NCBI GenBank assembly: GCA_023259115.1
Contig: JAHFQW010000002.1
Location: 1 to 39,359, forward strand
Direction: 5' to 3'
From: an archaeon
Lineage (GTDB): Archaea > Nanobdellota > Nanobdellia > Woesearchaeales > GW2011-AR9
DNA length: 39,359 nucleotides
The position numbers and the translations under genes were made by a program. The stretch's first letter is position 1. Every line of letters begins with the position of its first letter. This document shows, piece after piece, positions 8,264 to 24,312 of the stretch. The notes under the pieces are model-generated. The model did not search any database. It was not told the DNA's origin and worked only from the letters and a program-made list of their open reading frames with translations.

Positions 8264-8282
8264 AAAATAGGGGTGTGTGACT

Positions 8283-9665
8283 ATGAAGAAATTAGGATTA
8301 TTGATGATGTTGTTTCTATTTATTGGTATGTTTTCGTTGCCATTGGTTCAGGCGGCAGAGCCATGGGATACGATTAAGAGTATTGTGACGCTGCAGTTTA
8401 TGACGAATTTGGGTTTTGGTTCGTCTTTAGATCCGTTTGAGGGATTAGTGAGGTTTTTGCTCTTGATTTTGATGTTTACGCTGTTTTTTGTCGGGGCGGA
8501 ATTATTGAAACTTGGTCGTAATGCGAGTGTGGTTATCGCTTTAGTCTTTTCGTTGATTTCTGCGATATTTATTCCGGGTTCGGTGTTAATTGCGGCGGCG
8601 GCAAGTTATGCGACAATTGTGTCGATTGTAATATTAGGGATTCCGGTGCTGGTTTTGTTTGGAAGTTATTTTTTATTATCTGAATATCCCTGGGTGCGGT
8701 TTTGTATTATGGCGGTGGCAGTATGGGTTATATATCAGATGATGGATCACATTGCTTTGTTATCTACGGGTGCGGCTCTTTCTAGTTCACATTATGGGGC
8801 GGTGATTAGTAATGTACAAACGCCATTGAAGTGGGTGTTTGGTTTTGCGATTGCGGGATTGGTCTTATCTTTCTTTGCGGGTATTTCTCGTTCGGGCGGG
8901 GGGAGTGCATGGCATCCTAATGTGTTTGGACGGATTTGGAATCGAGTGCATCAGAAAACAGCACTGGGTGCGTATACGGAGAAGGGTAAAGAGCTGCGAC
9001 ATGCACGAGTGGAGGAAACACGATTATTGAATGATTTAGCAGTAGAGCAAAAAGAACTGGAGTTGTTGAGGGCGGGTTCTGAGAAGTTAGGGATGTATGA
9101 GCAGATTGCAGTTAAAGAATTTTTGGCTACCAGTTCAGTGAATAGTGCTAATCATCTTGATACTTTTAAGATTGCCATGGAGAATACAAAAGGGGCAATG
9201 GACGCTGTGAGGAATGTGGATCACCAATGGAAGAGAGCGGAGCGAAGAGAAGTGGCAGAAATGCGCAGATTGGTTAAAGAGATGGCAAAGAATTCTGTTT
9301 CTGATGCGGATAGAAAGAGAATTGAGGCAGAAGAACAGTTGTTGTTGAATTCGTATATTACTGTGAATCAAACTGTCAATAAGGCGTTGCGCGATTTTGA
9401 GGATGTGACGAAGTTTCATCAAACAGTGTTTGATGCTTGTCAGAAGTGGTATAAGAAGAGACCCGCTCCTACACCGGGCAAACCTATGATTTCAGTTTTG
9501 GATTTGACAAAGCTTCCAGGCATTTTACCTACGTTGGGGAAGATTGATATAAAAGTGAAGGGGATGTTAGGTGAGTTAAGTGTGGCGGCAACGGCGGAAG
9601 ATGCGGCAGTGAAGCGTACAGCCGTATTGGCTAAAGAAATTAAGGATAAGTGGGTTGTGAGTTAG
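8283..9665 (+). CDS. Polytopic membrane protein with cytoplasmic-type coiled-coil domain
   Basis: I do not recognise a named family. The 460-residue protein has a cleavable-looking signal peptide (to about LVQAAEP), then four or five hydrophobic segments between residues 50 and 200, another near residue 185-205, and a long charged helical region of about 240 residues (WNRVHQ onwards). The membrane part is clearly related to the protein encoded at 9833-10378: both have an RxLL...FTxFF helix, an ALV....AIF.P..VL.A helix and an ATIV..V..G.PV helix. The coiled-coil half corresponds in layout to the protein at 10380-11114. ATG 8283 was preferred over the in-frame GTG at 8277 because AGGGGTG lies just upstream. 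A T-rich stretch follows the stop. Confidence 0.8.
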   Translation: MKKLGLLMMLFLFIGMFSLPLVQAAEPWDTIKSIVTLQFMTNLGFGSSLDPFEGLVRFLLLILMFTLFFVGAELLKLGRNASVVIALVFSLISAIFIPGSVLIAAAASYATIVSIVILGIPVLVLFGSYFLLSEYPWVRFCIMAVAVWVIYQMMDHIALLSTGAALSSSHYGAVISNVQTPLKWVFGFAIAGLVLSFFAGISRSGGGSAWHPNVFGRIWNRVHQKTALGAYTEKGKELRHARVEETRLLNDLAVEQKELELLRAGSEKLGMYEQIAVKEFLATSSVNSANHLDTFKIAMENTKGAMDAVRNVDHQWKRAERREVAEMRRLVKEMAKNSVSDADRKRIEAEEQLLLNSYITVNQTVNKALRDFEDVTKFHQTVFDACQKWYKKRPAPTPGKPMISVLDLTKLPGILPTLGKIDIKVKGMLGELSVAATAEDAAVKRTAVLAKEIKDKWVVS

Positions 9666-9670
9666 AACTC

Positions 9671-9750
9671 GTTTTCTGATTTTCTTTTTTTGTTTTAATT
9701 TCTTTGTCTTTTTCTTGTTTTGTTTTTTTCTTGATTCTTCTTGTCTTTTG
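9671..9750 (+). terminator. T-rich transcription termination region
   Basis: Downstream of the stop at 9665 the plus strand has repeated runs of T (up to seven) over about 80 bases. Archaeal RNA polymerase terminates at such U-tracts without a required hairpin. It separates this gene from the independently promoted gene at 9833. Confidence 0.5.
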
Positions 9751-9832
9751 GTGTGTTTAGTTGAATTTTTACGATGATTTATAGTCGTGGGGAAACAAAA
9801 GGTTTATAAGTTTGTGAATTATTCTTTGGTGT

Positions 9833-10378
9833 ATGAAAAAGTGGTGGATGTCGATTGTTGCAGGCTTTGCGTTATTTCTGGCGGGATGTAGTTCAAGTAC
9901 GTCGGGGTCTGGCGGAGGTGTGGCGTCTGATATCTGGATGAAGATTTTGTCTGTGGGTAATTTATCGTTTTTGGGGTTGTCTGATGGGTCAATTGTTGTG
10001 GCGTTTACACGTTTATTGATTTGGTTGTTTGTGTTTACGGTTTTTTTTGCGGTGATTACGGTGTTTGGCGGCCGGAGTGGAACGGCGTTAGGGTTTTTGA
10101 ATCGGGGCCAGGCAATGGTTGTGGCACTGGTGATTGCGACGATTACGGCAATTTTTTTACCGGCGCAGGTATTATTGGCAACGGGTGCGGGATGGGCAAC
10201 GATTGTGGCGCTGGTGTTGATTGGCGGTCCCGTGATTGGCATTGGTCTACTTATTTTTCGAGTTCCAGGAATGATTACAACGCCAGGGAGAGGTGTGATA
10301 TTTTTACAACTCTTGTTATCGCTGTTATTATTGTGGATTTTGATGGCAATGAAATTTCATTTATCGAGGATGATTTAA
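9833..10378 (+). CDS. Small polytopic membrane lipoprotein, paralogue of the 8283 protein
   Basis: The 181-residue protein starts with a signal peptide ending in a lipobox-like FLAGC, so the mature protein may be lipid-anchored at Cys19. About four hydrophobic helices follow. Helices 1-3 align with those of the protein at 8283-9665, including FTVFF, TAIFLPAQVLLATG and WATIVALVLIGGPV. It lacks the long soluble domain, which appears to be supplied by the next gene. A TATA-like GGTTTATAAG at 9801-9810 precedes the ATG by about 25 bases, suggesting a leaderless mRNA. The stop codon is one base from the next ATG, so the two are translated from one mRNA. Function is unknown. Confidence 0.78.
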   Translation: MKKWWMSIVAGFALFLAGCSSSTSGSGGGVASDIWMKILSVGNLSFLGLSDGSIVVAFTRLLIWLFVFTVFFAVITVFGGRSGTALGFLNRGQAMVVALVIATITAIFLPAQVLLATGAGWATIVALVLIGGPVIGIGLLIFRVPGMITTPGRGVIFLQLLLSLLLLWILMAMKFHLSRMI

Positions 10379-10379
10379 G

Positions 10380-11114
10380 ATGGCAGCAGGAGTAAGCCCA
10401 GTTGTGGCAACAACGGTACTAGATTTTATAGATTATGCGATGTTTGCGGTTGGTGTGTTGATTGCGTATTTTGCATTTCAGTTAATTACGTATTCAACAG
10501 AGGAGGAGAGAACGGCACGTGATGCGGCAAGAGATGAATTGCGCGGACGTGTGGGGAGCGCAGTTACGGGGTATCGAGAGCGTAAAAAAGCGGAAGAAGG
10601 TGTGCGTGAGCGTCGTGGTTTATTGGAGCCAGCTAAAGGCTTCTTGATTAGAGCGGTGCAAAATAGTGATTCGGCGCGGGAAGAGTTTGGTGTGCAATCG
10701 GCGGCGGGATTACGACGGGGACGAGATTATGTTGAGAATGTGGTGCGTAATTTACAGTCTGCGCGTCGAGTGATACGTAGTGCATCGGTTCGGGCACGGG
10801 GTGAGAGACGAGAGTATCTTACACAATTGGCAGCGGTAGTTGAATCGTTACATGATCGAGTGCGTCGAGAGGTTGTGCCACAAATTCCTGGTAATTATAC
10901 TGTTGCTGATTGGGATGCTCGGGTGAATCTGATTAATGGGATTTTACGAGATATAGAAACGCAGTGCGGGGCGATTATTACTTCGATTGATTCGTTTGAG
11001 GATTCTGATGCTCGAAGTGTGCCGCCGATTACGCCGGGAGCGGGCGGAATGGGCGGTGGAGGAGGTGCTGGTGGTGGTAGACCACGAGCACGACCAAGTC
11101 CAGGAAGTCCTTAG
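10380..11114 (+). CDS. Single-TM protein with helical domain and Gly/Pro-rich tail
   Basis: The 244-residue product has one hydrophobic segment near residues 13-38 (DYAMFAVGVLIAYFAFQLI), then an Arg/Glu-rich helical region of about 160 residues and a low-complexity Gly/Pro/Arg tail. It starts one base after the preceding stop, with GAGGATG a few bases upstream serving as a plausible ribosome binding site. Together with the preceding gene it reproduces the two-part layout (multi-TM part, then TM plus soluble helices) of the single protein at 8283-9665. I do not recognise a family; a membrane complex is inferred. Confidence 0.78.
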   Translation: MAAGVSPVVATTVLDFIDYAMFAVGVLIAYFAFQLITYSTEEERTARDAARDELRGRVGSAVTGYRERKKAEEGVRERRGLLEPAKGFLIRAVQNSDSAREEFGVQSAAGLRRGRDYVENVVRNLQSARRVIRSASVRARGERREYLTQLAAVVESLHDRVRREVVPQIPGNYTVADWDARVNLINGILRDIETQCGAIITSIDSFEDSDARSVPPITPGAGGMGGGGGAGGGRPRARPSPGSP

Positions 11115-11141: not shown

Positions 11142-11891
11142 TTAGTAGGGTGTTTTGTTTTCTTTGTTCCAGACTTTGAAATATTCACATATTGGTTGTT
11201 TTGGACAGTCAAAACAATGGGGGCGTTGATGGCCTATATTGGTTGCGTGCCAACGGTAATAGTAAAGATATTTATTGATTCTCTGGCAGGGATATTTTTG
11301 GGCGAGGCGCATGAAGAAATCACCGTCACTGCAGGTGATGAGGTTTTCGTTGAACCCGCCGATGCGTAGGGCTATGCTTTTTCTATACATGCCAAAATGT
11401 TGCCAGCCGAGTTGGGAGAGATTTTGTGTACTAAATGGAGGAGCGAGATAGTGGTCTGTGATGTTATTTTGTTTGTTGATGGTGTAATATCCGGAGTACA
11501 CTAGGGCAAGATTTTTTTTTGATTGGAGCAGTTGCAGTGCTTTTGTAATGGCTTGTGGATGAAGTTGATCGTCGGCATCGAGATGGCCAATATATTTTCC
11601 TTGCGTGAGTGCGAGAGCTTGATTACGTGTGGAGGCAATGCCTTGTGATGTTTGGTTTTTGTATACTTTGATTTGGGGGTGAGATTTGGAGTATGATACG
11701 GCAATAGTGAGCGTGCTGTCGCGACTGCCATCGTCAATGAGGATTAGTTCTTTATTTGGGTAGGTTTGATTGAGAAAGCTCTCAATTGCTTGTGAGAGAT
11801 ATTTTTCGGCGTTGCGTGCAGGCATGATGATAGATACTAATGGGGAAGAAGGTTTATTTTTTGTTTGTTTCACTTGTGCTGTTTGTTTCAC
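11142..11891 (-). CDS. Family 2 glycosyltransferase
   Basis: A GT-A fold inverting glycosyltransferase is indicated by VSIIMPARNAEKYL near the N-terminus, LILIDDGSRDST with the nucleotide-sugar-binding acid, and the GHLDADDQLHP metal-binding DxD-type motif around residue 105. The 249-residue length is that of a single catalytic domain with no membrane anchor. The C-terminal 30 residues carry four Cys (CFDCPxxPxC plus others), possibly a small zinc knuckle, which is not typical. The gene overlaps the end of the preceding gene by 38 bases and follows a larger glycosyltransferase, so the three form one minus-strand unit. Donor and acceptor sugars are unknown. Confidence 0.88.
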   Translation of the reverse strand: MKQTAQVKQTKNKPSSPLVSIIMPARNAEKYLSQAIESFLNQTYPNKELILIDDGSRDSTLTIAVSYSKSHPQIKVYKNQTSQGIASTRNQALALTQGKYIGHLDADDQLHPQAITKALQLLQSKKNLALVYSGYYTINKQNNITDHYLAPPFSTQNLSQLGWQHFGMYRKSIALRIGGFNENLITCSDGDFFMRLAQKYPCQRINKYLYYYRWHATNIGHQRPHCFDCPKQPICEYFKVWNKENKTPY

Positions 11892-12351
11892 TTGCTAGAA
11901 TATCACTTAATTCCATATAAGCTTTGTGGAGAATTTCTGGGGGAATGGCTGTTTCTTCATTTTTTTTAGGTATGCTGAGAGCGAGATATTTACTGAGGTG
12001 ATTATTTTCTGATTCTTTTGGGGTTTCTTTTAAGCATTGCAATGAGTAGATTTCATCTTTTTTAATATAGGTTACGGTTACAATAGAGGTGTTTGTTTGG
12101 GGGTTTTGTTGTTGTACTTTTTCTTCTAGTAAAATGCCTTGGAAGTCGAGGGCAGAGGGGTTTGTGATGTTGGCGCGCCATTTTCCTTCTATAGTACTTA
12201 AGATTGCAGGTAAACTTTGATCGATAAAGCGTTGATCACTGAGTTCGGGGAAAATGGTTGCGTAAAATGCGTTGGGCAAGCCTTGGTGAATTGCTTTAGT
12301 ACAAATTCTTTCCCAGGCTTGGGAAAAGTAGTGGAGTGGTTCTTGTGTCAT
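11854..12351 (-). CDS. Protein of unknown function in glycosyltransferase operon
   Basis: The 165-residue protein has no signal peptide or membrane helix and no motif I can name. It reads as a compact alpha/beta domain (HYFSQAWERICTKAIHQG helix, then several beta-type segments such as TSIVTVTYIKKDEIYSLQCL), ending in a Ser/Thr/Glu/Asn-rich tail. It lies 13 bases after the double glycosyltransferase gene and overlaps the following glycosyltransferase by 38 bases, so translation is probably coupled. A role with those enzymes is inferred only from position. Confidence 0.72.
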   Translation of the reverse strand: MTQEPLHYFSQAWERICTKAIHQGLPNAFYATIFPELSDQRFIDQSLPAILSTIEGKWRANITNPSALDFQGILLEEKVQQQNPQTNTSIVTVTYIKKDEIYSLQCLKETPKESENNHLSKYLALSIPKKNEETAIPPEILHKAYMELSDILASETNSTSETNKK

Positions 12352-12364
12352 TTTTGTGATGTCA

Positions 12365-14494
12365 TTATGCTTGGCGTTTTTTTTGTTCTAGTTCTGCGAT
12401 TATTCTTTGTTCTAATTGTGAGGTACTTGGACTCTTGTGGGTGATTTTTCTTAAGATGTCAAGGGCTTGTTGTTTTTTTCCTTGGCTATCTAGAAATGTT
12501 GCTTGGAAGTATAACCCGGCAGGGTTTGCGGGGTCTAGTTGTTGAAGCAGGGTTAGTTCTTGGTTTGCTACTTCTGGGGTCATCCAGCGAAAGAAGCTTA
12601 CGAGGTGTTCGAGTTCTGTGATAAGGCTTTGGTATAGTTTTGTGTTCTGTTGCGCGTGTTCTTGTGTTCTCCAAGTTTCGTATAGTGCTTCACGTCGCGC
12701 AGTAGGATGGTTTAGGTCATAGCGTTGGATACGTGTTTTTTTGCTTTCTTGGGGAATTATGTATACTTGTTTTTGTGGCTGCAGGGTATGGCGCAGGGTG
12801 CTATATTTTTTTACAACCCGATCATTTGCTAATTGGAGTTTTCCTTTGTTTGAGGTATTTCCTCCATGGTTCATATTGTAGAGGTATAATGGTTGTTTGA
12901 TATGGATGGGGATACCTACCTCAATTAGTTTTGAATAGAGTTCGTAATCTACGGCATTTTCGAGGTTGGGGTTGACGCCTTCTGTTTGAAAGAATGAATC
13001 TCGGCGGAACATGCGAGGGGAGTGAATGCGCATACTGGTTCGTAGTATGTCAATGAGATCTTTGGGTTTTACTGCTGGATTAGTTTTATACCATTGCGGG
13101 GTAAATTCGTTACAGCTCCAGTGCGGTCTTTCTTCTCCGGTTTGTATGTCGTGGTCAATACAATCACCAAATACGACGCTGGCGCGGGGATAGTTTTGCA
13201 TGCCACGATGAAGTGTGCTGATAGCGGTTGGGAGTAATTCGTCGTCGGGATCAAGTTGGATAATATACTCTCCACGGCAGGCTTGGATGGTTCTGTTGGT
13301 ATTACTGGCCATGCCATGATTTTTTTTATCATCTACGATGCGGATGGTGAGCTGTTGTTGATAGGATTTTTGGAGTTTGTAGAGGAGATCACGTGTGCCG
13401 TCGTTGCTGCCATCTTCACCGATAACGACTTCGAGTTTTGAGTGATTGTATGTTTGGTTGGCGATACTCTTTAATGCTTTTTCAATGAATTGGATTTGGT
13501 TATAGCAAGGGATGTAGATTGATACGTCTGGACGAGGGGATACTTTTTTTGCCCGAAATTGGTCTACTTTATCCCAGAATAAGTCAGTACTTTTTTGTGT
13601 TTTCTGGGTATTAATGCGTCCGCCGTGTTCCAGATGATAGGCGGTGGTTTTTACGGGGATGAAGAAGAGTTGTTCTCCTAGTTTGTTGTTGAAGTGTTCA
13701 TAGAGACGCAGGCCAAATTCGGAGTCTTCTGCCCCCCATTGATTAAAATCTTCATCGAAGAGTCCTGCTTCGAATGCGTCGCTTCTGGAGAAGCTGCAAT
13801 TTCCTCCAGAGATCGTTGTGCCTATTACGTAGGTTGGGTCTTCTATGTTGTTGGGAAGAGATTTTAAGTTGTTTGTTTCACGATAGCGTTCATGACGCCA
13901 GTCTTGTGCTGTGCCAAAGCGTCGGGAGGTGGAACGTTTTACTTGAGAGAGTTGTTTTTGTTTTATTTTTTGGTCCAAATCGGGGTTTTGATCTAGCTCG
14001 ACAAAAGCACGATCTTGTGTGGTCATGATTCTTGCGCCCTGTTGTTGTGCGGCGTAGTGTTGTTTCATGACGTTTTCTACATAGGTGTGTTCGGGGATCA
14101 TATCTGCGTCAAGAGAAATGATGGTGTCATGTGAGGCGACTTTGAGTGCTTCGTTTCTTATTTTGGCGAGCCGAAAGCCTTGGTCTGGTTGCCAGACGTA
14201 TTTTACATCAAAAGGTAGATTTGCTTTGGCAACGATATCCATGCAGCTGCCAGAACCACGGCGAGAGCCGTCGTCGGCGATGATAACTTCGATAGAATTT
14301 GGATCATAGGTTTGCTGCTGGAGAGCGAGGAGTTGTTTTTTGAGTTGTTCTTCTTGATTGTAGGTTGTGACGATGATGCTTACTTTGGTTTGGGATTGCC
14401 AGCGGCTATTTGAGAAGGTGCCATCTACTTGGTACTGATTGACGAGTTGTTCTAAACGGGTGTAGTCGTTATTTGTGTAGGGCATTTGAATCAC
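12365..14494 (-). CDS. Two-domain glycosyltransferase (GT2-GT2) with C-terminal TPR-like tail
   Basis: This 709-residue protein carries two GT-A domains. Domain 1 (about residues 30-290) has VSIIVTTYNQ, VIIADDGSRRGSG, ISLDADMIPEHTY and the galactosyltransferase-type WGAEDSEFG motif. Domain 2 (about 325-560) has SIYIPCYNQ, VVIGEDGSNDGT and IIQLDPDDELLP. This layout is that of bifunctional polymerising enzymes such as chondroitin synthase, which add two sugars alternately. The last 70 residues (LYFQATFLDSQGKKQQALD and on to the end) match, in diverged form, the C-terminal module of the neighbouring J/TPR proteins, tying it to that cluster. Its promoter element is identical over 29 bp to that of the VWA gene. 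An alternative start is Met4. Confidence 0.88.
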   Translation of the reverse strand: MIQMPYTNNDYTRLEQLVNQYQVDGTFSNSRWQSQTKVSIIVTTYNQEEQLKKQLLALQQQTYDPNSIEVIIADDGSRRGSGSCMDIVAKANLPFDVKYVWQPDQGFRLAKIRNEALKVASHDTIISLDADMIPEHTYVENVMKQHYAAQQQGARIMTTQDRAFVELDQNPDLDQKIKQKQLSQVKRSTSRRFGTAQDWRHERYRETNNLKSLPNNIEDPTYVIGTTISGGNCSFSRSDAFEAGLFDEDFNQWGAEDSEFGLRLYEHFNNKLGEQLFFIPVKTTAYHLEHGGRINTQKTQKSTDLFWDKVDQFRAKKVSPRPDVSIYIPCYNQIQFIEKALKSIANQTYNHSKLEVVIGEDGSNDGTRDLLYKLQKSYQQQLTIRIVDDKKNHGMASNTNRTIQACRGEYIIQLDPDDELLPTAISTLHRGMQNYPRASVVFGDCIDHDIQTGEERPHWSCNEFTPQWYKTNPAVKPKDLIDILRTSMRIHSPRMFRRDSFFQTEGVNPNLENAVDYELYSKLIEVGIPIHIKQPLYLYNMNHGGNTSNKGKLQLANDRVVKKYSTLRHTLQPQKQVYIIPQESKKTRIQRYDLNHPTARREALYETWRTQEHAQQNTKLYQSLITELEHLVSFFRWMTPEVANQELTLLQQLDPANPAGLYFQATFLDSQGKKQQALDILRKITHKSPSTSQLEQRIIAELEQKKRQA

Positions 14495-14585: not shown

Positions 14586-15587
14586 TTATGCGATGACATA
14601 GGTGGCTAGTTTTTGCGTGACACGTTCCAGAGCTTGTTTGGCAGAGGAGCCTGTACCGGCGTTTTGAAAGTGGGTGAGGGCTTGAGTTAATTCCTGTTGT
14701 GCTTCGTAGATGGTTGCGAGGAAGTAGTGTGCGTGATGATTCTGCGGCTGGTGTTGGATGATTTGTTGTCCGAGATTAAGAGCGAGGTTGTATTCTTTGA
14801 TATCACGTAGAAGACGCAGTTCTTGAATTGCTCTATCAATGTTTTGTTGTGATAGATAGTCTGGTTGGCCGGGAGTGCCAAGAAGGTTTTGGGTATGGCG
14901 TTGGAGAGCCGTTTCAAGAGTGGTTATGCGAGTGTTTGTTTTGCTGGTTTGGGCGGTGGTTTGTTCACATTCTTGCCTGAGAGTGTCTAGTGCGAATTGA
15001 TATTTGTCACGAGCAGTTTTAGCATCTTGTAGTTCTGCTTGAGCAGTTTTTCTATCTAGGGTATGTTGTTGTTCTAAAAGACTATAGCGCTGGTTTAGAT
15101 TGTCGAAGTTGTGCTGTAATGTTTCTTTGGCTTTTGTTGTTTCATCTATTATTTTATTATGTTCTTCTAATTCTTTTTTGATTTCAAAGAAATAGTGTAG
15201 TTGTTGGGCAAGTTGGGGTGTTCTTATTTTTGGACTATTTTGCAGTGTGCGTGTATATCTTTTTAGATCGGCATATTTGCCATCTCGTCCATTTTTTAAG
15301 GGTTCTTGGTAATACTGACTGTCAATTAGGAGGGCTAAATATTCTGTGACTTGTTCGGCAAGACTAATTGCTTGTTTTTGCATTATGTCTGGAAGATGGT
15401 CGATTACGGCGGGATGAAGAGTGTGTTGCAGTAAACGATAGTTTTCTTTGATATTATGCCGTAATCGTGCTTCTTCGGTATTAGATTTATCTCCTTGGAG
15501 TTCGTAGTTTTTGGGATCAATTTGAAATATGGAGAGAATATTAATTCTTTGTTCTAGTGGTTCGCCGAGCCAAAAGTAGTCTTTCAT
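14586..15587 (-). CDS. Degenerate J-like, coiled-coil and TPR-tail protein
   Basis: Three parts are visible in 333 residues. Residues 1-115 start with WLGEPLEQRINILSIF and contain a J-domain-like segment in which the HPD motif is HPA (58-60). Residues 125-235 form a coiled coil with many Gln/Leu/Glu heptads. Residues 250-333 are TPR-like helices ending in YFLATIYEAQ and the terminal AGTGSSAKQALERVTQKL motif shared by the cluster. The N-terminal part is clearly related to the proteins at 19135-19692 and 19784-20359. The missing Asp of HPD argues against normal Hsp70 stimulation, so it may be a scaffold. A TATA-like TTTATAAA at about 15610-15617 precedes the ATG by about 25 bases. Confidence 0.8.
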   Translation of the reverse strand: MKDYFWLGEPLEQRINILSIFQIDPKNYELQGDKSNTEEARLRHNIKENYRLLQHTLHPAVIDHLPDIMQKQAISLAEQVTEYLALLIDSQYYQEPLKNGRDGKYADLKRYTRTLQNSPKIRTPQLAQQLHYFFEIKKELEEHNKIIDETTKAKETLQHNFDNLNQRYSLLEQQHTLDRKTAQAELQDAKTARDKYQFALDTLRQECEQTTAQTSKTNTRITTLETALQRHTQNLLGTPGQPDYLSQQNIDRAIQELRLLRDIKEYNLALNLGQQIIQHQPQNHHAHYFLATIYEAQQELTQALTHFQNAGTGSSAKQALERVTQKLATYVIA

Positions 15588-15652: not shown

Positions 15653-17005
15653 TTATGAGGAGAGATGGGCTTTTACGCGGGCGATACCTGCTTGGGCGGA
15701 GGAGCCAGTGCCGCTTCTGCTGTATGCGTCAAGGGCTTTCTGCCAGTCTTTTTGTTGTTCATAGGCGGTGCCTAGAAAATAGGATGCGTCTGTATTAGTT
15801 GGTTCTAGGGTTAGCAATTGTTGGCAGGTGTGTATGGTTGTTTGCAGATCTTTTGTCTGTCTGGATGTTTTTACCTGTTCTAGCATTTTTGCTTTGACTT
15901 TGTTGTATTGTTGTTGTGCGGAAGGACTTTTGGGAGCGATAGCAAGAATAGCTTGATATTGCTCTCCGGCTTGAACTAATTGGCCTTGGCTTTGATAAAT
16001 GGTACCGACGAAATATCGTACGTGGACGTTGTCTGGGTCTACAGAGAGGACCATATGAGCATATTGCAATGCTTCTTCTGTTCTTCCTGTGTCACGAAGT
16101 TCTTTGATTTTGTCCACTAATTTTTTGTCCAGAGGATTTTCACGTGCATCTTTGAGTTTTGCATCATACCCTGCTTGTCGGCTTGCCAGTTCTTTTCCAT
16201 GCACCTCATTTTGATGTTTAATAAATTGTTCTGCGGCATTTACGGCATCTCTTTGGATTTGTTCTGCTTTTGTTTTTGCCGTGCGCGTGGTTTTGAGTTC
16301 TGTTTCTAAATCACCCATTTTTCTTTCGTCTTCTTCTCTTTTTTTATTTCCGGCGGTGTGCAGTCTCTTGTAGCGATCGCGATCGGTGGTTATTTCTGTG
16401 AGTTTGGTCTCTAATCCGGTTATTGTTGCAGTGTTGCTATCCAGTTGGCGTTGATAGTCGGTGTTTCTGCGCTGTGCTGTTGTTAATTCTGTTTTTGCTG
16501 CTACTCCTTCTTGTACTCCGCGTACAAGATCATCTATTTTGGCGGGGGCATTTGCTAATGTGATGCGAATGCCCAAAGAAGTGTTATTGTACAGAATGGC
16601 ATGGGGATTAGCACTTCCACCACGAGCCATAGCCATTGCAAGAGTGCTTAGTTCTTGATCTTTATCTCTGACAAGTGAATCAAGTCGTTCGATTTCGGTC
16701 ATGGCTTGAGCAAGTAAAAGTTCATCTCCGCTATTGTTTTGCATATATCCCCTAACTAGCGTGGTGAGTTTATCATCACTCATCTTTTGGATATCCGTCT
16801 CCGCAGTTGTGAATAGTTTAAAAAAATCTTCTTTTTTCTGTTTGTTAGGATCGTCAGCGATTTTATCTGGATGATATTCTTTTGCTAGATTACGAAAATG
16901 TTTTTTTACTTTCGCTTTTACCCCTTCGACGTCTACTGATGTGTCTGTGACATAGATCGCGAGTTCTCTGCGTAAATCCAGATCCTCCAATAGTTTTTTA
17001 ACCAT
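15653..17005 (-). CDS. J-domain protein with coiled coil and two C-terminal TPR-like modules
   Basis: The 450-residue protein has an N-terminal J-domain: helix KKHFRNLAKEY followed by an intact HPD (45-47) and a helix with FFKLFTTAE. Intact HPD is needed to stimulate the ATPase of Hsp70 (DnaK), so this could be a working co-chaperone; no DnaK is in the window. Residues 170-300 are coiled coil. Two copies of the cluster's C-terminal module follow: about 320-365 (VRYFVGTIYQSQ.. SPSAQQQYNKVKAKM) and 400-450 (ASYFLGTAYEQQ.. SGTGSSAQAGIARV). It lies 25 bases downstream of the VWA gene on the same strand, so it is likely in the same operon. Confidence 0.85.
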   Translation of the reverse strand: MVKKLLEDLDLRRELAIYVTDTSVDVEGVKAKVKKHFRNLAKEYHPDKIADDPNKQKKEDFFKLFTTAETDIQKMSDDKLTTLVRGYMQNNSGDELLLAQAMTEIERLDSLVRDKDQELSTLAMAMARGGSANPHAILYNNTSLGIRITLANAPAKIDDLVRGVQEGVAAKTELTTAQRRNTDYQRQLDSNTATITGLETKLTEITTDRDRYKRLHTAGNKKREEDERKMGDLETELKTTRTAKTKAEQIQRDAVNAAEQFIKHQNEVHGKELASRQAGYDAKLKDARENPLDKKLVDKIKELRDTGRTEEALQYAHMVLSVDPDNVHVRYFVGTIYQSQGQLVQAGEQYQAILAIAPKSPSAQQQYNKVKAKMLEQVKTSRQTKDLQTTIHTCQQLLTLEPTNTDASYFLGTAYEQQKDWQKALDAYSRSGTGSSAQAGIARVKAHLSS

Positions 17006-17030: not shown

Positions 17031-17912
17031 TTATGATTTCCCTAACAAGCCGGCAACTTTGGTTGCTTGATATGTTGGAAGAGCTGCTAAGTATGTTCTT
17101 AATGCTTCTGGGCTTTCTTCTTTTTTGATCATGCCAATGATTGCTGGACCTAATACGCTGCGCGCACTCTCAAAGCGCAGATAGGTGGTTTTTGGTGTGT
17201 TTCCGGCGGCTTGATACGTGCCCGTTTTGAATTCATCATTATATGACGGTGCACAGTCCACAAAATAGGTGTGAGTGGCCATCGCGGTCATGCCTACTAG
17301 CTGCGCGGCATTGCGTTGATGCGGACAGCCGTCATCATTCATACTTCTTTTCCCATGAGGAACAGAGTCGCCAAAGAAAACGATCACTTGTTTCTTATTG
17401 TGATTTTTTTGTTTGTCATCGTACATTTTCTGGGTTAGGTCTGCGGCCAAACATTCATATGCTTCAGGCCCATCTCCTCCACTGGTATTTATAATGCTCT
17501 TGATTTGATTATGTAAATCATTTACACTTGTTGTAGGAGCATTATCTTGGCCGTAATCTCCTAGCATACGTACTCCTTGTTTTTGTAAATAACTTTTTTC
17601 ACAGTGATCGCTCACACTCAGAACGCAGGCTTCAATACCTCTTTTTCCATCGAGAATTTCTTGTCCCACTTGCTCAATACAGGTGTGAACCGCGTCTATA
17701 TAATTACTCATACTGCCCGTACTATCAAAGACGAGATAGGCGATGAGGGGGTTATTTTGGCGTGCGCTTATACGTTCGCCGAGTTTTTCTGCAGCAGCTC
17801 CAGTAACCGCTCCGGGTAAATATCTTTCTGCTCCATTTCCCGAAGGAAGAGCACCAGCGCTTCCTTGTAAACGTTGTTCTAATGATTTTCGTACATCGTT
17901 GTTATTTGCCAT
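17031..17912 (-). CDS. von Willebrand factor A domain protein
   Basis: The 293-residue protein is mostly one VWA domain beginning at about residue 55. The metal-ion-dependent adhesion site is complete: DSTGS at 63-67, Thr142 before SGGDGPEA (Asp146), and the FFGDSVPHG strand with Asp181. VWA domains use this site to bind partner proteins in metal-dependent assembly. There is no signal peptide, so it is cytoplasmic, unlike adhesins. The N-terminal 50 residues are Gly/Ala/Arg-rich and flexible; the last 60 are helical. It has its own promoter (17958-17986) and is followed after 25 bases by a J-domain protein, so the partner is likely in the same cluster. No MoxR ATPase or Ter protein lies nearby. 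Confidence 0.9.
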   Translation of the reverse strand: MANNNDVRKSLEQRLQGSAGALPSGNGAERYLPGAVTGAAAEKLGERISARQNNPLIAYLVFDSTGSMSNYIDAVHTCIEQVGQEILDGKRGIEACVLSVSDHCEKSYLQKQGVRMLGDYGQDNAPTTSVNDLHNQIKSIINTSGGDGPEAYECLAADLTQKMYDDKQKNHNKKQVIVFFGDSVPHGKRSMNDDGCPHQRNAAQLVGMTAMATHTYFVDCAPSYNDEFKTGTYQAAGNTPKTTYLRFESARSVLGPAIIGMIKKEESPEALRTYLAALPTYQATKVAGLLGKS

Positions 17913-17999: not shown

Positions 18000-18515
18000 C
18001 TATAAGTATATGGCTCGAAGTTTAGCCAACTGTGCTTGGGCAGAAGAATGGTTGGGTAATTTTTCAAAGCAGGCAATCGCTTGTTCGATATTCTGTTGCT
18101 GTATATGAATTGTGCCGGCAAAATAGGTGGCGTGGGTATGCTGGGAATTGAGTTCTAAGAGCACAGCACAGTATTCCATGGCTTGGGAGTATTGTTTCTG
18201 GTCGCGAAGTTGGGGAATGGTTTTGAGCAGTTCTGTTTCGAGAAGTTGATATTGCTGTTTCGATGGTTGGTGATTTAGAAGAGCGGCTTTGTGATAATTG
18301 GTTAGAGCGTTTAGAGAATCGTGTTCTTGTTCAAAGATTTGACCTGCGATATAGAGGCAATCGGGATTAAATGGTTGGGTTAGAGCGTATTGTTTTATTT
18401 CTTGAATGAATGATTTTTCTTTTTGTAGTGTTTCTTCTAGTGCGGTTGTTCGTGCGTTCTGTAATTCTACAAGTCTTTGTATACGACTGAGTACGGTGTT
18501 ACTGCTATCTGTCAT
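18000..18515 (-). CDS. Coiled-coil and TPR-like tail protein
   Basis: The 171-residue protein starts MTDSSNTVLSRIQRLVELQ, resembling the start of the upstream 171-residue protein (N..L.R(V/I)Q.(I/L)V). A first TPR-like repeat lies near residues 52-75 (DCLYIAGQIFEQEHDSLNALTNYHKA). The C-terminal module reads ATYFAGTIHIQQQ..EQAIACFEKL, then a diverged NHSSAQAQLAKL terminus. It ends 87 bases before the VWA start, in front of the VWA promoter. Its ATG comes only eight bases after a hairpin and eight T residues, an odd position suggesting attenuation or a separate start. Confidence 0.75.
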   Translation of the reverse strand: MTDSSNTVLSRIQRLVELQNARTTALEETLQKEKSFIQEIKQYALTQPFNPDCLYIAGQIFEQEHDSLNALTNYHKAALLNHQPSKQQYQLLETELLKTIPQLRDQKQYSQAMEYCAVLLELNSQHTHATYFAGTIHIQQQNIEQAIACFEKLPNHSSAQAQLAKLRAIYL

Positions 18516-18554: not shown

Positions 18555-19070
18555 TTAGATGTCTAATTTTAGACTGTCGAGATATCTGTTGACTTCATCA
18601 ATTTGTTTTTGGGTGTGCTGGATTTGTGTGTGGAGTTCGCTATTTTGCTGTTCTGCTCTGGTGTATGTTCCTTGAAGTTCTTCAACTCTTATCTGAAGTT
18701 CAAGATTGGCTTCTTCTGTTGCGGTTACTTTTCCTTCTGCATCAACATTTTGTCTTCTTAATTCTTGATATTGGGTTTCTAAGCCTGTGTACCTTGTGGT
18801 TAATTCCATTTGTTGTGTTTGCAGTGATGCATATTCTGTGGTTTTAGCACTCAGATCTCGAGTTGCCGTGGTACATCTTTCTTCTAAAGAGAGTTTCTCT
18901 CCACGTAGTTGTTCTGCAGTATCTTGTAGGGTACTCATGTCTGATTGTGCTGTTTGATATTTTGTTTCTACGTCTGTTCGTAGAGCTTGTTCTTCTGCTA
19001 GTTTTTGTTGGTATGTTCCTACTATTCCTTGTACTCGTTGTAATAATGGGTTTGCTGCTTCTTGTGTCAT
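18555..19070 (-). CDS. Coiled-coil protein of the J/TPR cluster
   Basis: The 171-residue protein is almost wholly coiled coil from residue 15 to the end, rich in Gln, Glu, Leu and Thr with no Pro after the start. Its first 15 residues (MTQEAANPLLQRVQG) resemble the next protein's start, and its end (NRYLDSLK) resembles the end of the J-like protein upstream (QDYLDSLK). It has no J domain and no terminal GTGSSAK motif, so it may be a linker or partner of the other coiled coils. GGAGGAG lies eight to fourteen bases before the ATG, a strong ribosome binding site, consistent with translation from an operon mRNA. Confidence 0.75.
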   Translation of the reverse strand: MTQEAANPLLQRVQGIVGTYQQKLAEEQALRTDVETKYQTAQSDMSTLQDTAEQLRGEKLSLEERCTTATRDLSAKTTEYASLQTQQMELTTRYTGLETQYQELRRQNVDAEGKVTATEEANLELQIRVEELQGTYTRAEQQNSELHTQIQHTQKQIDEVNRYLDSLKLDI

Positions 19071-19134: not shown

Positions 19135-19692
19135 TTATTTTAATGAATCAAGATAATCTTGTATTCCATTTCTTTCTTGTACGGCTAATTTTAATAAATT
19201 TCTAGTTGTGGTTAGCTGTTCATTTAATGTGGTTGTTTCGTTTTGATGTTTTGCTATCATTTGTTCGATTTCTCTTCTTGTTTCGAGGAAATCGTTTACG
19301 ATTTGTGTGAGGGGAAGTTTTTCGGGAGTATTATTTTTGAGGTTGATGATATAAGCGGTAAGAGGGAAGGTGCTGAGGGTTACGGAAACATAACCCGCTT
19401 TCTCTCCGTCTTGAGGTCGAGGGTTGGTGTATTTTTCTTCACTGGTGAGGATGGTGTAGAGATCACTAATCTCTTTGAAGAGGTCTTCAGCTATACGTTG
19501 AATGGAACTGGGGAATTGTCTTTGACGATCGGGATGGAGTTGTTGGGATAACTCGCGATAGCCGCGTTTGATATCTCCTTTTATTCTTTCGGTTTCTTGT
19601 TTATCTTCAAAGATATAACTGTTATAATTTACTTTGAAGAGGCTGAGGATGTCGATGCCTATGTATTCGCCAAGCCAACTATTTTTGCTCAT
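19135..19692 (-). CDS. WLGE-type J-domain protein with coiled coil
   Basis: Residues 6-20 read WLGEYIGIDILSLFK, the N-terminal motif shared with the proteins at 14586-15587 and 19784-20359. The J-like core follows: IKRGYRELSQQLHPD with intact HPD at 53-55, then IAEDLFKEISDLYTIL. Residues 130-185 are a coiled coil ending in QDYLDSLK. With 185 residues it lacks the TPR-like tail. It may act on an Hsp70, since HPD is intact, while its close relatives have lost it. A TATA-like TTTATAAAT at about 19713-19721 stands roughly 25 bases before the ATG, and the coiled-coil gene follows after 64 bases. Confidence 0.82.
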   Translation of the reverse strand: MSKNSWLGEYIGIDILSLFKVNYNSYIFEDKQETERIKGDIKRGYRELSQQLHPDRQRQFPSSIQRIAEDLFKEISDLYTILTSEEKYTNPRPQDGEKAGYVSVTLSTFPLTAYIINLKNNTPEKLPLTQIVNDFLETRREIEQMIAKHQNETTTLNEQLTTTRNLLKLAVQERNGIQDYLDSLK

Positions 19693-19783: not shown

Positions 19784-20359
19784 TTACTTAAGATAAGAAA
19801 ATCCGAGGTTGGTGGCGGCGACATATCCTTCGATACAATCAAAGGTGTGTTTTAGTGCATGATTTTCTAATTTGAGCCTATCAATTTCTTGTTGGGCGTT
19901 TCTGAGTTGTTTTTCGTGGTTTTGAGTTGCGTTGTCAAAACTGGATTTTAGTGTGATAAACAGGGCTACTGTGCGGGCGTAGTATGGTTCGATTTTTTGC
20001 GGGGTTATGGTTAAATAGGCAACGTAGTCAGTTAGGTCGTATTTGCCATAGTTGCGATTTAGTGTGCTATTTGGTTGAAAGTACTGTTTTGTTTTATCGG
20101 TGAGTAGAATATAGGTTTCGTCTACTTTTTGGGAGAGTTCTTGGGCGATGGTTTTAAATTCTTCAGGGTAGAGATGATAGTTGTCTGGGTCGATTATTTC
20201 TTTTAGAGAATGATATTTTTTTTCTATGTCCTGGCGCAGACGCTGTTCATCTACGACTGAACTTTCGGTGTTATAATATTCTGCTGCGAGAAGTCCAAAA
20301 ACGCTTAGAAGATCTATGGGGGGTTCTTGAGCGTCGCCAAGCCAGCGCAATGGAATCAT
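19784..20359 (-). CDS. WLGD-type degenerate J-like protein with coiled coil
   Basis: The 191-residue protein has WLGDAQEPPIDLLSVF at residues 6-21 and a J-like core in which HPD is replaced by DPD (57-59). A NYGKYDLTDYVAYL segment near residue 105 is also found as DGKYADLKRY in the 333-residue relative. Residues 140-175 form a short coiled coil. The loss of the first His makes Hsp70 stimulation unlikely. It has a TATA-like TTTAAAAATAA upstream near 20380-20390 and is separated from the next J protein by 91 bases. Confidence 0.8.
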   Translation of the reverse strand: MIPLRWLGDAQEPPIDLLSVFGLLAAEYYNTESSVVDEQRLRQDIEKKYHSLKEIIDPDNYHLYPEEFKTIAQELSQKVDETYILLTDKTKQYFQPNSTLNRNYGKYDLTDYVAYLTITPQKIEPYYARTVALFITLKSSFDNATQNHEKQLRNAQQEIDRLKLENHALKHTFDCIEGYVAATNLGFSYLK

Positions 20360-20436: not shown

Positions 20437-20691
20437 TCACTGAATATTAATTTTCTGGCCCAAAGATTGGCCGGGTAAACCAGCGTCTGCAAAGATTGCT
20501 CTGACATTACCATTTCGGCCATGAAGGGCGGAAATTTTACCTGAAATGGTTTTTCCGGCGGGGCTTGTCCATGTCGCGGTTTTACCAATGACCGTTTTTG
20601 CTTCTTGCGCACTATTTGCTACTTTGAGAATCATTTGATGGGGGTTTTGGTGATGTCGTCCTTGACGAAAATGCATGATTACGGCTTCCAT
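20437..20691 (-). CDS. rpl35ae: 50S ribosomal protein eL33 (L35Ae)
   Basis: The 84-residue protein matches eL33: MHFRQGRHHQNPHQMILKV, the IGKTATWTSPAGK strand pair and HGRNGNVRAIF..GLPGQSLG. eL33 is a large-subunit beta-barrel protein. The TATA-like TTTATAAAG near 20715-20722 lies about 25 bases ahead of the ATG at 20691, indicating a leaderless mRNA and supporting this start rather than Met6. It is a housekeeping gene standing alone inside the accessory region, between the J-like proteins and the toxin-antitoxin cassette. Confidence 0.93.
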   Translation of the reverse strand: MEAVIMHFRQGRHHQNPHQMILKVANSAQEAKTVIGKTATWTSPAGKTISGKISALHGRNGNVRAIFADAGLPGQSLGQKINIQ

Positions 20692-20888: not shown

Positions 20889-21281
20889 TTAAGACACAAT
20901 TATTTTTTGAAGTTCTTCAATAGGTTGAAAATCGTTGTCTTTGGTTACGAGAACATAGTTATTTTCGATAGTTATAGATGCGATTAGCAAATCACTTAAT
21001 GATAGAATTATTCCTCTTTTCTCGTATTTATGTTTTAGTGTGGCGAGGGCGAGGGCGGTTTTTTTTGTGGGAAATAGTGTTTCAAAATTAGTTAAAAAAG
21101 AGAGGGCTTTTTGTTTGTTCTTTTCGTTTTTGTCTACTAATCCATACGTGAATTCAAATTCGGTGATGAAAGTTATTTTCGGGAGAAGGGGATATATTTT
21201 TGAGAGTTCTTCTATTCTTTTTATTGTGGGAATAACTTCTTTTTCGATATCAATGAGAATGGAGGTGTCTAATACGAGCAT
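20889..21281 (-). CDS. PIN-domain ribonuclease, VapC-like toxin
   Basis: The 130-residue protein has the PIN-domain acidic quartet: Asp5 in VLDTSILID, Glu in TEFEFTYG, Asp in LSLSDLLIA and Asp in VTKDNDF. These bind the metal ions that cut RNA; VapC toxins typically cleave tRNA or rRNA. The gene starts within the stop of the preceding ribbon-helix-helix gene (TAATG, one-base overlap), the usual antitoxin-first order, which makes a VapBC-type pair very likely. The RNA target is unknown. Confidence 0.9.
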   Translation of the reverse strand: MLVLDTSILIDIEKEVIPTIKRIEELSKIYPLLPKITFITEFEFTYGLVDKNEKNKQKALSFLTNFETLFPTKKTALALATLKHKYEKRGIILSLSDLLIASITIENNYVLVTKDNDFQPIEELQKIIVS

Positions 21282-21526
21282 TATATTCTGAACCCTCTCT
21301 CTTTTCTCATTTTTTTTATTTTCTCGCGAAGGTTTTCCGCATCTTCATCGTTGAGAAGTCTGCCGGATGAGAGAATTTTATGCCATGTTTTTTCGTTGTT
21401 TTTTTGATATTCATAGACCATTGTTTTGAATAATGTTCCCATTTTCACTCTGTTTCTTGCAGCGAGACCTTTGAATTCGTGCCATGTTTGGGTATCAATG
21501 TCTTTAATGGTTTTTATTTCGTTCAT
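21281..21526 (-). CDS. Ribbon-helix-helix antitoxin, VapB-like
   Basis: The 81-residue protein begins with a strand (EIKTIKDI), a helix (TWHEFKGLAARNR) and a second helix (MGTLFKTMVYEYQKN), the ribbon-helix-helix DNA-binding layout. The remaining 35 residues, including LLNDEDAENLREKIKK, are the probable toxin-binding tail. It overlaps the PIN toxin gene by one base. A perfect palindrome five bases ahead of its ATG is the likely operator by which the antitoxin represses the operon. Confidence 0.82.
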   Translation of the reverse strand: MNEIKTIKDIDTQTWHEFKGLAARNRVKMGTLFKTMVYEYQKNNEKTWHKILSSGRLLNDEDAENLREKIKKMRKERGFRI

Positions 21527-21611: not shown

Positions 21612-23138
21612 ATGATTAAAGGTCAGGTGGTATTTGGGGATTTTGGACGTATTGTGATGCGGGTGAAGGCGGATCAAGAGGTGGAACTTGGCGAGCTTGT
21701 GGTAATTGAGCAAGGCAGAGAGAGGTTTATTTTGCAGGTGTATGATTTAGTGTATGGGAGTCAGATTTCTAGTTCCAATTTAGAGATGGTGGCAGGCATG
21801 AATTTGGAGGAGGGTGGTTTTGCGGTGATGGATGAGAAGCTGCGTAATTATCAGTTGGCGTATTTGAAGCCGGTGTTGACGGTGTCAGAACAGAGTGCGA
21901 TGTGCAAGAAGCTGCCGGCGTTTTTTGGAAAAGTGCGGGCACTCGAAAAAGAGGATTTGTCATTTATTACGATGCCCAGAGAGCCGATGTTTTTGGGTAG
22001 TGTGCGCAGTGGAAGCAAGAAGTTGGATTTTGACGTATTTTTGCCTGGACGAGAGGTGTTGAGTCATCATATTTTAATTCCAGCGAGTACGGGGAAGGGA
22101 AAGTCGAATTTGATGTCGTGCATACTCTGGGATTTGACAGATAAAGATTTTGCGGGGATGTTGGTGCTTGATCCACATGATGAGTATTATGGGCGAGGAG
22201 GTTTGGGATTGAAAGATCATCCAATGCGCGCGAATGTGAGTTATTATACCCCAATTAATCCACCTCCGGGCGCGCGGTTGTTAAAAATAAATTTGAAGAA
22301 GTTGAAGCCGGAGCATGTGCAGGGGGCAATTTTTTTAAGTGATCCACAGCGACAGTGTTTGTTTGCGTACTATCGCAAATATAAATCGGAGTGGGTGCGA
22401 GCGGTGATGGAGGAGAGAAAAATTGAAGGCGTTTCATTTCATGAGGATACGATGGCCGTTGTGAAGCGGCGGTTGATTTCGCTTCTTAATTTGGATTTGG
22501 AGAAAGGGGTGCTTACGTGTGAGGGGATTTTTGATGAGGTTGCGGGGGAGAATACGATTGAGGATATTTGTCAAGAGTTAGAGAGAGCAAAGATGGTGAT
22601 TATTGATACGAGTTATTTTTCCGGGGCGATGGAGATTATGATTGGAACGATTATTGCGTCAGAAATTTTTGAGAAATATAAATATTATAAACGAGTTGGT
22701 CGGCTGGAGGAGAAGCCGGTTGTGAGTATTGTTTTGGAGGAGGCGCCGAGAGTATTAGGCAAGAATGTGCTAGAACAAGGGAGTAATATTTTTGAGAGTA
22801 TTGCGCGCGAGGGGCGGAAATTTAAGATTGGTCTTATTGCGATTACGCAGCTGCCTTCAGAGATTCCTAAACAAGTGCTGGCAAATATGAATACAAAGAT
22901 AATATTGGGAATTGAGATGAATTCAGAGAGGCAGGCTGTGATGGAATGCGCGCCGCAGGATTTGAGCCAGGATAATAGGAATATTGCTTCTCTGGATAGA
23001 GGCGAGGCGCTGGTGACGTCGACGTTTACGCGCTTTGCGGTGCCGATTCGAGTGCCGATGTTTTCGGAGTTTGTGCGGTTGATGAAAAAAGAGAATAGAG
23101 ATAGAAAAGAAATGATGGATGGGAGTTTATTTCAATAG
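21612..23138 (+). CDS. HerA-like ATP-binding protein (DUF87 family)
   Basis: The 508-residue protein has an N-terminal beta-barrel-type region ([21 protein letters not shown]), then a P-loop, ASTGKGKS at 158-165, with [13 protein letters not shown] as the next conserved element, a Walker B type strand [11 protein letters not shown] and a sensor-like [12 protein letters not shown]. This is the HerA/FtsK-type ATPase layout with a HAS barrel, used for double-strand DNA translocation. HerA normally works with nuclease NurA in end resection; no NurA is adjacent here, so an alternative partner or a different DUF87 subtype is possible. A TATA-like CCTTAAAAAG at 21582-21591 gives a short or no leader. 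It is the only plus-strand gene in the accessory region. Confidence 0.88.
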
Positions 23139-23190: not shown

Positions 23191-24312
23191 TTAGATTGGT
23201 AGTGCTGATAGTTTTTGTTCTATTCTTGCGAGTGCTGTTTTTGCAGAAGAGCCTGTTCCGGCTTGTTTATATTCTTCTAGAGCGCTTTCGAGCTGATTAG
23301 TCTGTTCATATACTGTGCCAAGAAAGTAATGGTTATGAAAGTTATCTGGTTCAATTATAGTGAGAAATTCATAGAGGGTTATTGCTTGGCTTGATTTTTT
23401 TTTATCTCGAAGAGTTTTGGCGTTTGATGCGAGTATTTGATGATATTTGTTTTCGATAATATGTTGTCGAATGGGGAGAAGCATCTCTTGTGCATTTAGA
23501 GTGATGGCTATTTGGCTATGTGTGATAGCATCTATAAGATCTGCTAGATCTTGCGTATTTGTAAATTGGGACAATTTGTGTTTTCCCATTTCCCATGCGG
23601 CAGCGTAATCTTGCAATAAAGCAAAAGGGTCAATTGAAGTTGTGGATGCTTGAGCAATATGTTTTTTGGCTTGTTCACGTATACTCTGTTCAGTATCTTT
23701 ATAATGGTATAATACTTGATATAACGACATGGCGGTCTGGTGTGAATTTAATTCAACGAGAGTGTTAGCAAGGGTGAGTGTGGCTTGTTGATACCGAGAT
23801 GATTTTTCAAATGCTGCGGTAAATGCGAGCTCTAGTTCCGCTTCTAGAGGAGTATCTTGTGGTTGTTTGTAGATTTGAATAGCGGCGGAGAGAAATTTAA
23901 AGTCATCAGGAGAGGGGAATAATAATTCGTGCAGTTCTAATTGTACTTTAAGATCATGGAGATGGTGTGTAGGGCTATAGTTGTGTTGTTGTTTCTGTTG
24001 AAGTGCTAATAATTCTTTTTCAAGAGAGGTGTATGCACTCGCCCATTGTTCAGTGTATTCCTCAGCTAGACGTCCTCTTTCTACTACCTCATTGTATTTT
24101 TCTCCTAGTTCCCTATACTCTGCTCGGACATGTTCTAATTGTTTGTGCGCATCCCAGAGTTGCTGGTTGAGATGTTGTTCTTCTGTTTGTGATTTTTCTA
24201 ATTTATATTTTGTTTCTTCTAAAGCATATTTAAGATTAAATTCGGGGATGATTTTTCTTGCTAGCCATTTCCAGAAACCTACTTTTGTGTCTTGAGGGGT
24301 GCTAGCTACCAT
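23191..24312 (-). CDS. Coiled-coil and TPR-like protein with GTGSSAK tail
   Basis: The 373-residue protein starts with a basic-hydrophobic segment (VGFWKWLARKIIPEFNLKY), which could be an amphipathic membrane-contacting helix, followed by a long coiled coil (about residues 28-115). From 118 to the end it is TPR-like helices. The final 50 residues are the cluster's module: NHYFLGTVYEQTNQLESALEEY then AGTGSSAKTALARIEQKL. No J domain is present. A TATA-like ATTTAAAAA at about 24330-24340 precedes the ATG. It is separated from the rest of the cluster by HerA and the toxin-antitoxin cassette but is clearly of the same family. Confidence 0.8.
   Translation of the reverse strand: MVASTPQDTKVGFWKWLARKIIPEFNLKYALEETKYKLEKSQTEEQHLNQQLWDAHKQLEHVRAEYRELGEKYNEVVERGRLAEEYTEQWASAYTSLEKELLALQQKQQHNYSPTHHLHDLKVQLELHELLFPSPDDFKFLSAAIQIYKQPQDTPLEAELELAFTAAFEKSSRYQQATLTLANTLVELNSHQTAMSLYQVLYHYKDTEQSIREQAKKHIAQASTTSIDPFALLQDYAAAWEMGKHKLSQFTNTQDLADLIDAITHSQIAITLNAQEMLLPIRQHIIENKYHQILASNAKTLRDKKKSSQAITLYEFLTIIEPDNFHNHYFLGTVYEQTNQLESALEEYKQAGTGSSAKTALARIEQKLSALPI

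Follow-up and report, generated by a model that had tools for sequence, protein, structure and literature searches.

The question raised by this locus is whether a double-domain glycosyltransferase, encoded beside a cluster of J-domain and TPR proteins, is tied to that cluster by protein architecture or by location only. A sequence-only reading had proposed the former: the last 70 residues of a 709-residue GT2-GT2 protein were said to align with the tail of the J/TPR family, such that the cluster might organise polysaccharide or glycoprotein synthesis. The window (the whole stretch of DNA that was analysed, 39,359 nucleotides) is a 39-kb part of a 1.57-Mb, 54-contig woesearchaeal genome. To our knowledge, the surface biology of DPANN archaea is almost wholly undescribed.

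The protein is indeed present, on the minus strand, and contains two Pfam GT2 domains (1e-44, two stretches). Its parts are the following:

12365-14494, minus strand: GT2-GT2-TPR enzyme, 709 aa from a GTG codon or 706 aa with the start at the conserved Met4
13595-14383, minus strand: GT2 domain 1 (residues 38-300), KfoC A1-like, with DDGS, DAD (DxD) and WGAED
12815-13537, minus strand: GT2 domain 2 (residues 320-560), KfoC A2-like, with EDGS, DPD (DxD), NAVDY and HGGNTS
12368-12643, minus strand: C-terminal tail (residues 618-709), predicted TPR-like helices and a C-terminal cap helix

Met4 is the first residue of the orthologues, and translation thus probably begins in fact at the ATG of position 14485, which would give an enzyme of 706 aa. 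A structure model of the full 709 residues, built from three sequences, is poor (mean pLDDT 49.6) and reliable over the tail only; the catalytic part was therefore assigned by its sequence match to KfoC, and the tail was modelled separately. E. coli KfoC (2Z86/2Z87) aligns to residues 38-558 in a single collinear A1-A2 alignment (E 6e-58, 200 bits), while the next-best solved structure matches as a single domain with 49.5 bits. Both DxD motifs, WG(A/G)ED at the first site and NAVDY at the second are retained in this alignment. They are also retained in the orthologues, with the middle DxD residue variable in each; the WGAED of the window enzyme is YGAED in its three orthologues. The description as a double-domain glycosyltransferase can thereby be sharpened to that of a putative KfoC-like two-site enzyme. 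KfoC itself is bifunctional, A1 being the GalNAc site and A2 the GlcUA site (PMC2889854). As in KfoC and the class II glycosaminoglycan synthases, two GT2 domains follow one another in the same order in one cytosolic chain. No membrane span is predicted in the enzyme or in the tail proteins. Unlike KfoC, the enzyme is archaeal and distant in sequence, it bears a C-terminal TPR-like tail, and its gene lies in a J/TPR/VWA island rather than in a kps capsule locus.

The full-length enzyme is found in 4 of 353 Woesearchaeales genomes, namely: the window's own genome, G001, G002 and G062, the orthologues being 56-63% identical to the window copy; one further, distant two-domain relative is present in G098. 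When named genomes were scanned with the enzyme sequence by itself there were no matches; a scan with an alignment found the enzyme in three named archaeal records, two of them Candidatus Woesearchaeota and the third labelled 'archaeon'. Gemmatimonadaceae matches from the latter scan were discarded as homologues, being single GT2 domains. In a limited search of the literature on Woesearchaeota glycosyltransferases/TPR and archaeal KfoC, no description of the enzyme or its locus was found, and a survey of Woesearchaeota genomes (PMC8421398) makes no mention of glycosyltransferase, tetratricopeptide or KfoC.

The enzyme gene is surrounded by the island genes listed here, with the coordinates of their tails:

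11142-11891, minus strand: GT249, single-domain GT2 of 249 aa, homologous to enzyme domain 2, co-conserved in four genomes
11854-12351, minus strand: p165, 165-aa protein with no assigned family, accompanying the enzyme in each of four genomes
14586-15587, minus strand: J333, J-like/coiled-coil protein of 333 aa, HPD lost and no Pfam J hit, tail at 14604-14840
15653-17005, minus strand: J450, J-domain protein of 450 aa, HPD present, tail in two units, 15881-16129 and 15659-15892
17031-17912, minus strand: VWA-like protein of 293 aa, Pfam VWA_4 weak and under the cut-off
18000-18515, minus strand: T171, TPR protein of 171 aa, tail at 18003-18239
18555-19070, minus strand: coiled-coil protein of 171 aa, without tail
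19135-19692, minus strand: J-domain protein of 185 aa, without tail
19784-20359, minus strand: J-like/coiled-coil protein of 191 aa, without tail, J-like by eye and no Pfam DnaJ hit
23191-24312, minus strand: T373, coiled-coil protein of 373 aa, tail at 23206-23442
24482-25462, minus strand: 326-aa protein, variant tail at 24491-24766

These genes are embedded in a backbone of more widely conserved ones:

8277-11114, plus strand: three membrane-protein genes (8277-9665, 9833-10378, 10380-11114), conserved backbone
20437-20691, minus strand: L35Ae-like ribosomal protein gene, identified from sequence, a backbone marker in the locus
21612-23138, plus strand: HerA-like ATPase, backbone
25611-26498, plus strand: signal-peptide-peptidase-like membrane protein, backbone

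The HerA-like ATPase is present in 47 of the 49 family genomes and the 181-aa membrane protein in 36 of the 49. The island site is flanked by the third membrane protein on one side and by L35Ae/HerA on the other, and in most relatives it is empty or holds other genes. Glycosyltransferases occupy it in the own genome, G001, G002, G009 and G062, accompanied by J/TPR proteins in all of these except G062 (the G001 locus is spread over several contigs), and the gene order GT249 - p165 - GT709 is kept in the own genome, G001, G002 and G062. The strict form of the tail occurs in 9 of the 353 Woesearchaeales genomes, at this locus in 7 of those 9. The island is an accessory element, inserted in a conserved membrane-protein/HerA locus, whose cargo varies. 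The locus itself, conserved across the family, may be a translocation apparatus. The three small membrane proteins (8277-11114) have no significant Pfam hits, and the HerA-like ATPase (21612-23138) also matches CedD weakly. Its G009 counterpart (L048:14933-18043) has 1036 aa and is interrupted by an intein-looking insertion, while in G062 (L160:2236-4268) two proteins judged by eye to be SPFH/HflK-HflC-like are encoded near HerA, towards the peptidase-like membrane protein. A PIN-domain toxin and VapB-like antitoxin pair also lies within the locus (20889-21526). The island was considered as an anti-phage system and rejected, since only the HerA-like ATPase has a good PADLOC match, the rest having none or weak TPR/coiled-coil ones.

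We then consider the tail of the enzyme. Modelled alone (residues ~618-709), it is predicted to have TPR-like helix packing with a C-terminal cap (pLDDT 87, pTM 0.77), and a Foldseek search of this model against the PDB places TPR domains best, with modest E-values and a high probability each time. The predicted helix A/B pairs and C-terminal cap helix are shared with TPR domains at large (the Pfam TPR clan; MamA, FKBP/Cyp40, OGT); the tail differs from these in having only about two repeats, in falling below Pfam detection and in having the neighbouring island tails as its nearest sequences. Since no Pfam TPR model matches it at E<=0.05, the tail noticed by the sequence-only reading is something that a general library misses.

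To compare it with the island tails, a forward profile was made from the seven non-GT J/TPR tails, with the enzyme left out, and searched against the whole genome in six frames. It matches the enzyme tail at 12407-12553 (21.1 bits, E 3.7e-4), which is the genome's top match beyond the J/TPR proteins; the next is an ordinary TPR protein of the same genome (18.9 bits, E 1.8e-3). When scored beside the TPR proteins of relatives, the enzyme tails reach 8-13 bits, lower than most generic TPRs (12-30). A comparison of the glycosyltransferase tails with the J/TPR tails by hhalign gives a probability of 95%. A reverse profile, made from the four enzyme tails, scores J333 at 19.0 bits, J450 at 14.2, T373 at 10.2, T171 at 10.1, J477_G2 at 9.5, T480_G1 at 9.2 and T653_G1 at 7.6. 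All seven of these island tail proteins outscore the 51 control ORFs, which reach at most 5.1 bits, and the 60 column-shuffled profiles, which reach at most 4.8 bits; the generic TPR controls had been picked because they closely resemble the island tail. The corresponding rank test gives a p of 0.0015, which is optimistic as the island tails are mutually related.

Like the island tails, the enzyme tail consists of a TPR pair and a cap helix at the very end of the chain, and its gene belongs to the membrane-protein/HerA locus. The GTGSSA/SSA signature that precedes the cap helix is another matter: at this position the enzyme tails read SPST in the own genome, HPTA in G001, GGSSA in G002 and TPSA in G062, i.e. 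most of the signature is missing in the window enzyme, and remnants are seen as GGSSA (G002) and PSA (G062). The likeness of the enzyme tail to the J/TPR tail therefore appears to be beyond chance and somewhat specific. As the reverse profile puts all seven island tails above controls and shuffles, these are apparently the nearest relatives of what looks to be a diverged TPR. The proposal of a shared tail is thus borne out as kinship, with a significant profile match, while its wording as the same tail is too strong for a sequence that has diverged and lacks most of GTGSSA.

The reading we favour, and hold tentatively, is that the enzyme is a cytosolic KfoC-like two-site polymerase docked by its tail to the J/TPR assembly of the island. 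A first alternative is that the enzyme has long had this TPR and uses it to fold, to dimerise or to handle its acceptor, and that the likeness of the tail to the neighbours reflects just a shared TPR nature at one locus. The G098 homologue bears directly on this. It belongs to a different family, ends in a canonical TPR (Pfam 7e-9), and no J/TPR genes were seen near it in the 16 kb read. For this reason the enzyme TPR may be older than its link to the J/TPR proteins, and need not stem from the island as an appended piece. This alternative also agrees with the failure of the forward profile to separate the enzyme tails from generic TPRs, and with the existence of other enzyme-TPR fusions, human OGT and SPINDLY being among the fold matches. 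However, the reverse profile favours the island tails over every generic TPR control, and the G098 TPR cannot be aligned to the enzyme tail by BLAST, the match ending at residue 585. As to whether relatives carry the fusion, all four orthologues (own, G001, G002 and G062) are tailed, and the one homologue with a different TPR is that of G098. Given also that the locus has repeatedly put tails on glycosyltransferases, as described below, we regard an old, self-serving TPR as a credible but rather doubtful explanation.

Stronger evidence than that of the window enzyme comes from two relatives with tails on other glycan enzymes of the locus. In G062, a GT4-type glycosyltransferase (Pfam 4e-8) sits between L35Ae and the enzyme. 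The strict J/TPR tail is recognised on it with 49 bits (E ~1e-14), no control exceeding 30 bits, and the protein matches J450 from residue 345 onward (6e-9). Its homologue in G098, which is of another family and also adjoins a GT2-GT2 enzyme, has only 344 aa, and in the G062 protein the homology extends no further than residue 349. In the G062 GT4, the tail is thus clearly fused to a glycosyltransferase with a different fold. Two observations speak against the docking reading: the locus of G062, with its two tailed glycosyltransferases, lacks J/TPR and VWA proteins, and in G065 a tail protein is present and the GT4 is without tail. In G009, at the same syntenic site, a GT2 (441 aa), the J/TPR protein J454 and a third protein, T539, share a tail of ~85 residues (pairwise blastp 1e-10 to 1e-7). 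A profile of the J454 and T539 tails recovers the GT2 at 4e-14, the best of 2000 shuffles being 0.43, and the three copies in G009 are the only ones among the 49 genomes. We considered this tail as a diverged form of the window tail and rejected the idea, the hhalign probability being 1.6%. Because the two tails are unrelated, the sharing of a tail between enzyme and scaffold recurs with unrelated sequence.

Taken together, the GT4 tail of G062 and the shared tail of G009 indicate that glycan enzymes are tied to this locus by protein architecture. For the window enzyme itself, the same proposal is supported in part, by its orthologues and by these two cases, and is weakened by a tail whose affinity to the island tails exceeds that of generic TPRs by only a little. 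In a broader form, an island-specific tail would join glycosyltransferases of different folds with J-domain and coiled-coil proteins, unrelated tails in different islands acting as an exchangeable membership tag of an archaeal glycan-assembly complex; we consider this general form unlikely.

The tails could alternatively be recombination cassettes, i.e. repeated 3' segments by which the cargo genes (glycosyltransferases, J-proteins and coiled coils) are swapped or homogenised, with docking being secondary. G001 provides evidence for this. Two neighbouring genes that otherwise differ share 95% identity across 182 nt of their tail DNA (L058:8404-10150), which demonstrates that copying or homogenisation of tails within a locus can take place. 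A third copy is found on another contig (L032:18886-19406), and each of the three is broken at a different place by a small deletion. The varied cargo of an accessory island at one site would also fit. Against this, misassembly at repeats may account for the interruptions in G001, and the tails of the window have diverged, with no DNA repeat across them and with the TPR residues still kept. We therefore judge cassettes to be an improbable explanation.

A further alternative takes the tail as a selector of protein substrates, like the TPR of OGT, so that the enzyme would glycosylate island or surface proteins and make no free polysaccharide. The OGT and SPINDLY TPRs among the fold matches are in its favour, and glycoprotein synthesis was one of the two outcomes originally envisaged. 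In OGT, a long TPR superhelix lies N-terminal to a catalytic part of the GT-B type. With O-GlcNAc transferase (GT41) and SPINDLY the enzyme shares the presence of a glycosyltransferase and a TPR in one chain, but its catalytic domains are two of the GT-A (GT2) type and its tail is short and C-terminal, an arrangement other than that of GT41. Furthermore, its catalytic part resembles KfoC, an enzyme that elongates a glycan chain; the KfoC-like, two-site architecture favours a polymer over a glycoprotein. A substrate-selecting tail is accordingly a quite unlikely reading.

Under the docked-polymerase reading, the two GT2 domains would each add a sugar of their own, in alternation, as the chain grows, by analogy with KfoC. 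The TPR-like tail would dock the enzyme to a partner common to the J/TPR proteins of the island, as their shared architecture suggests, and the tails of the G062 GT4 and the G009 GT2 would dock in a like manner. The polymerase and its partner glycosyltransferases could in this way be brought by their tails into one assembly with the J/TPR proteins, and this assembly, to go by gene order alone, might sit next to the membrane-protein/HerA apparatus. If so, tiny and probably host-dependent DPANN archaea may build themselves a coat from a polymer in which two sugars alternate, and a tail common to sugar enzymes and their chaperone-like neighbours, with an unrelated one in its place in a relative, would provide a testable rule for membership of the assembly.

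As for the sugars, UDP-glucose dehydrogenase is found in the own genome, G002, G062 and G098, and none is detectable in G001, which has the enzyme; a supply of glucuronate is hence not assured. Just downstream of the window, on the same contig, lies a polysaccharide locus (L034:6795-19155, contig 39360+) with two UDP-glucose-dehydrogenase-family genes, GT2s, a flippase-like protein, nucleotidyltransferases and methyltransferases, all names except those of the dehydrogenases being read by eye.

Finally, some of the proteins seen here end in what may be variable segments. A 220-aa protein (L034:1321-1983) has a C-terminus that resembles a C-type-lectin/DGR variable protein and ends in LRGVRR; it has no Pfam hit, and a template repeat was not found within 2.7 kb. 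Elsewhere in the family, in G071 (L088:1035-3363) and G010 (L087:1938-4163), related VWA-J gene pairs adjoin reverse transcriptases, and the J-protein genes end in variable/template repeats whose mismatches fall at template adenines (15 of 15 in G071 and 16 of 20 in G010). These pairs look like diversity-generating retroelements acting on the C-termini of J-proteins.
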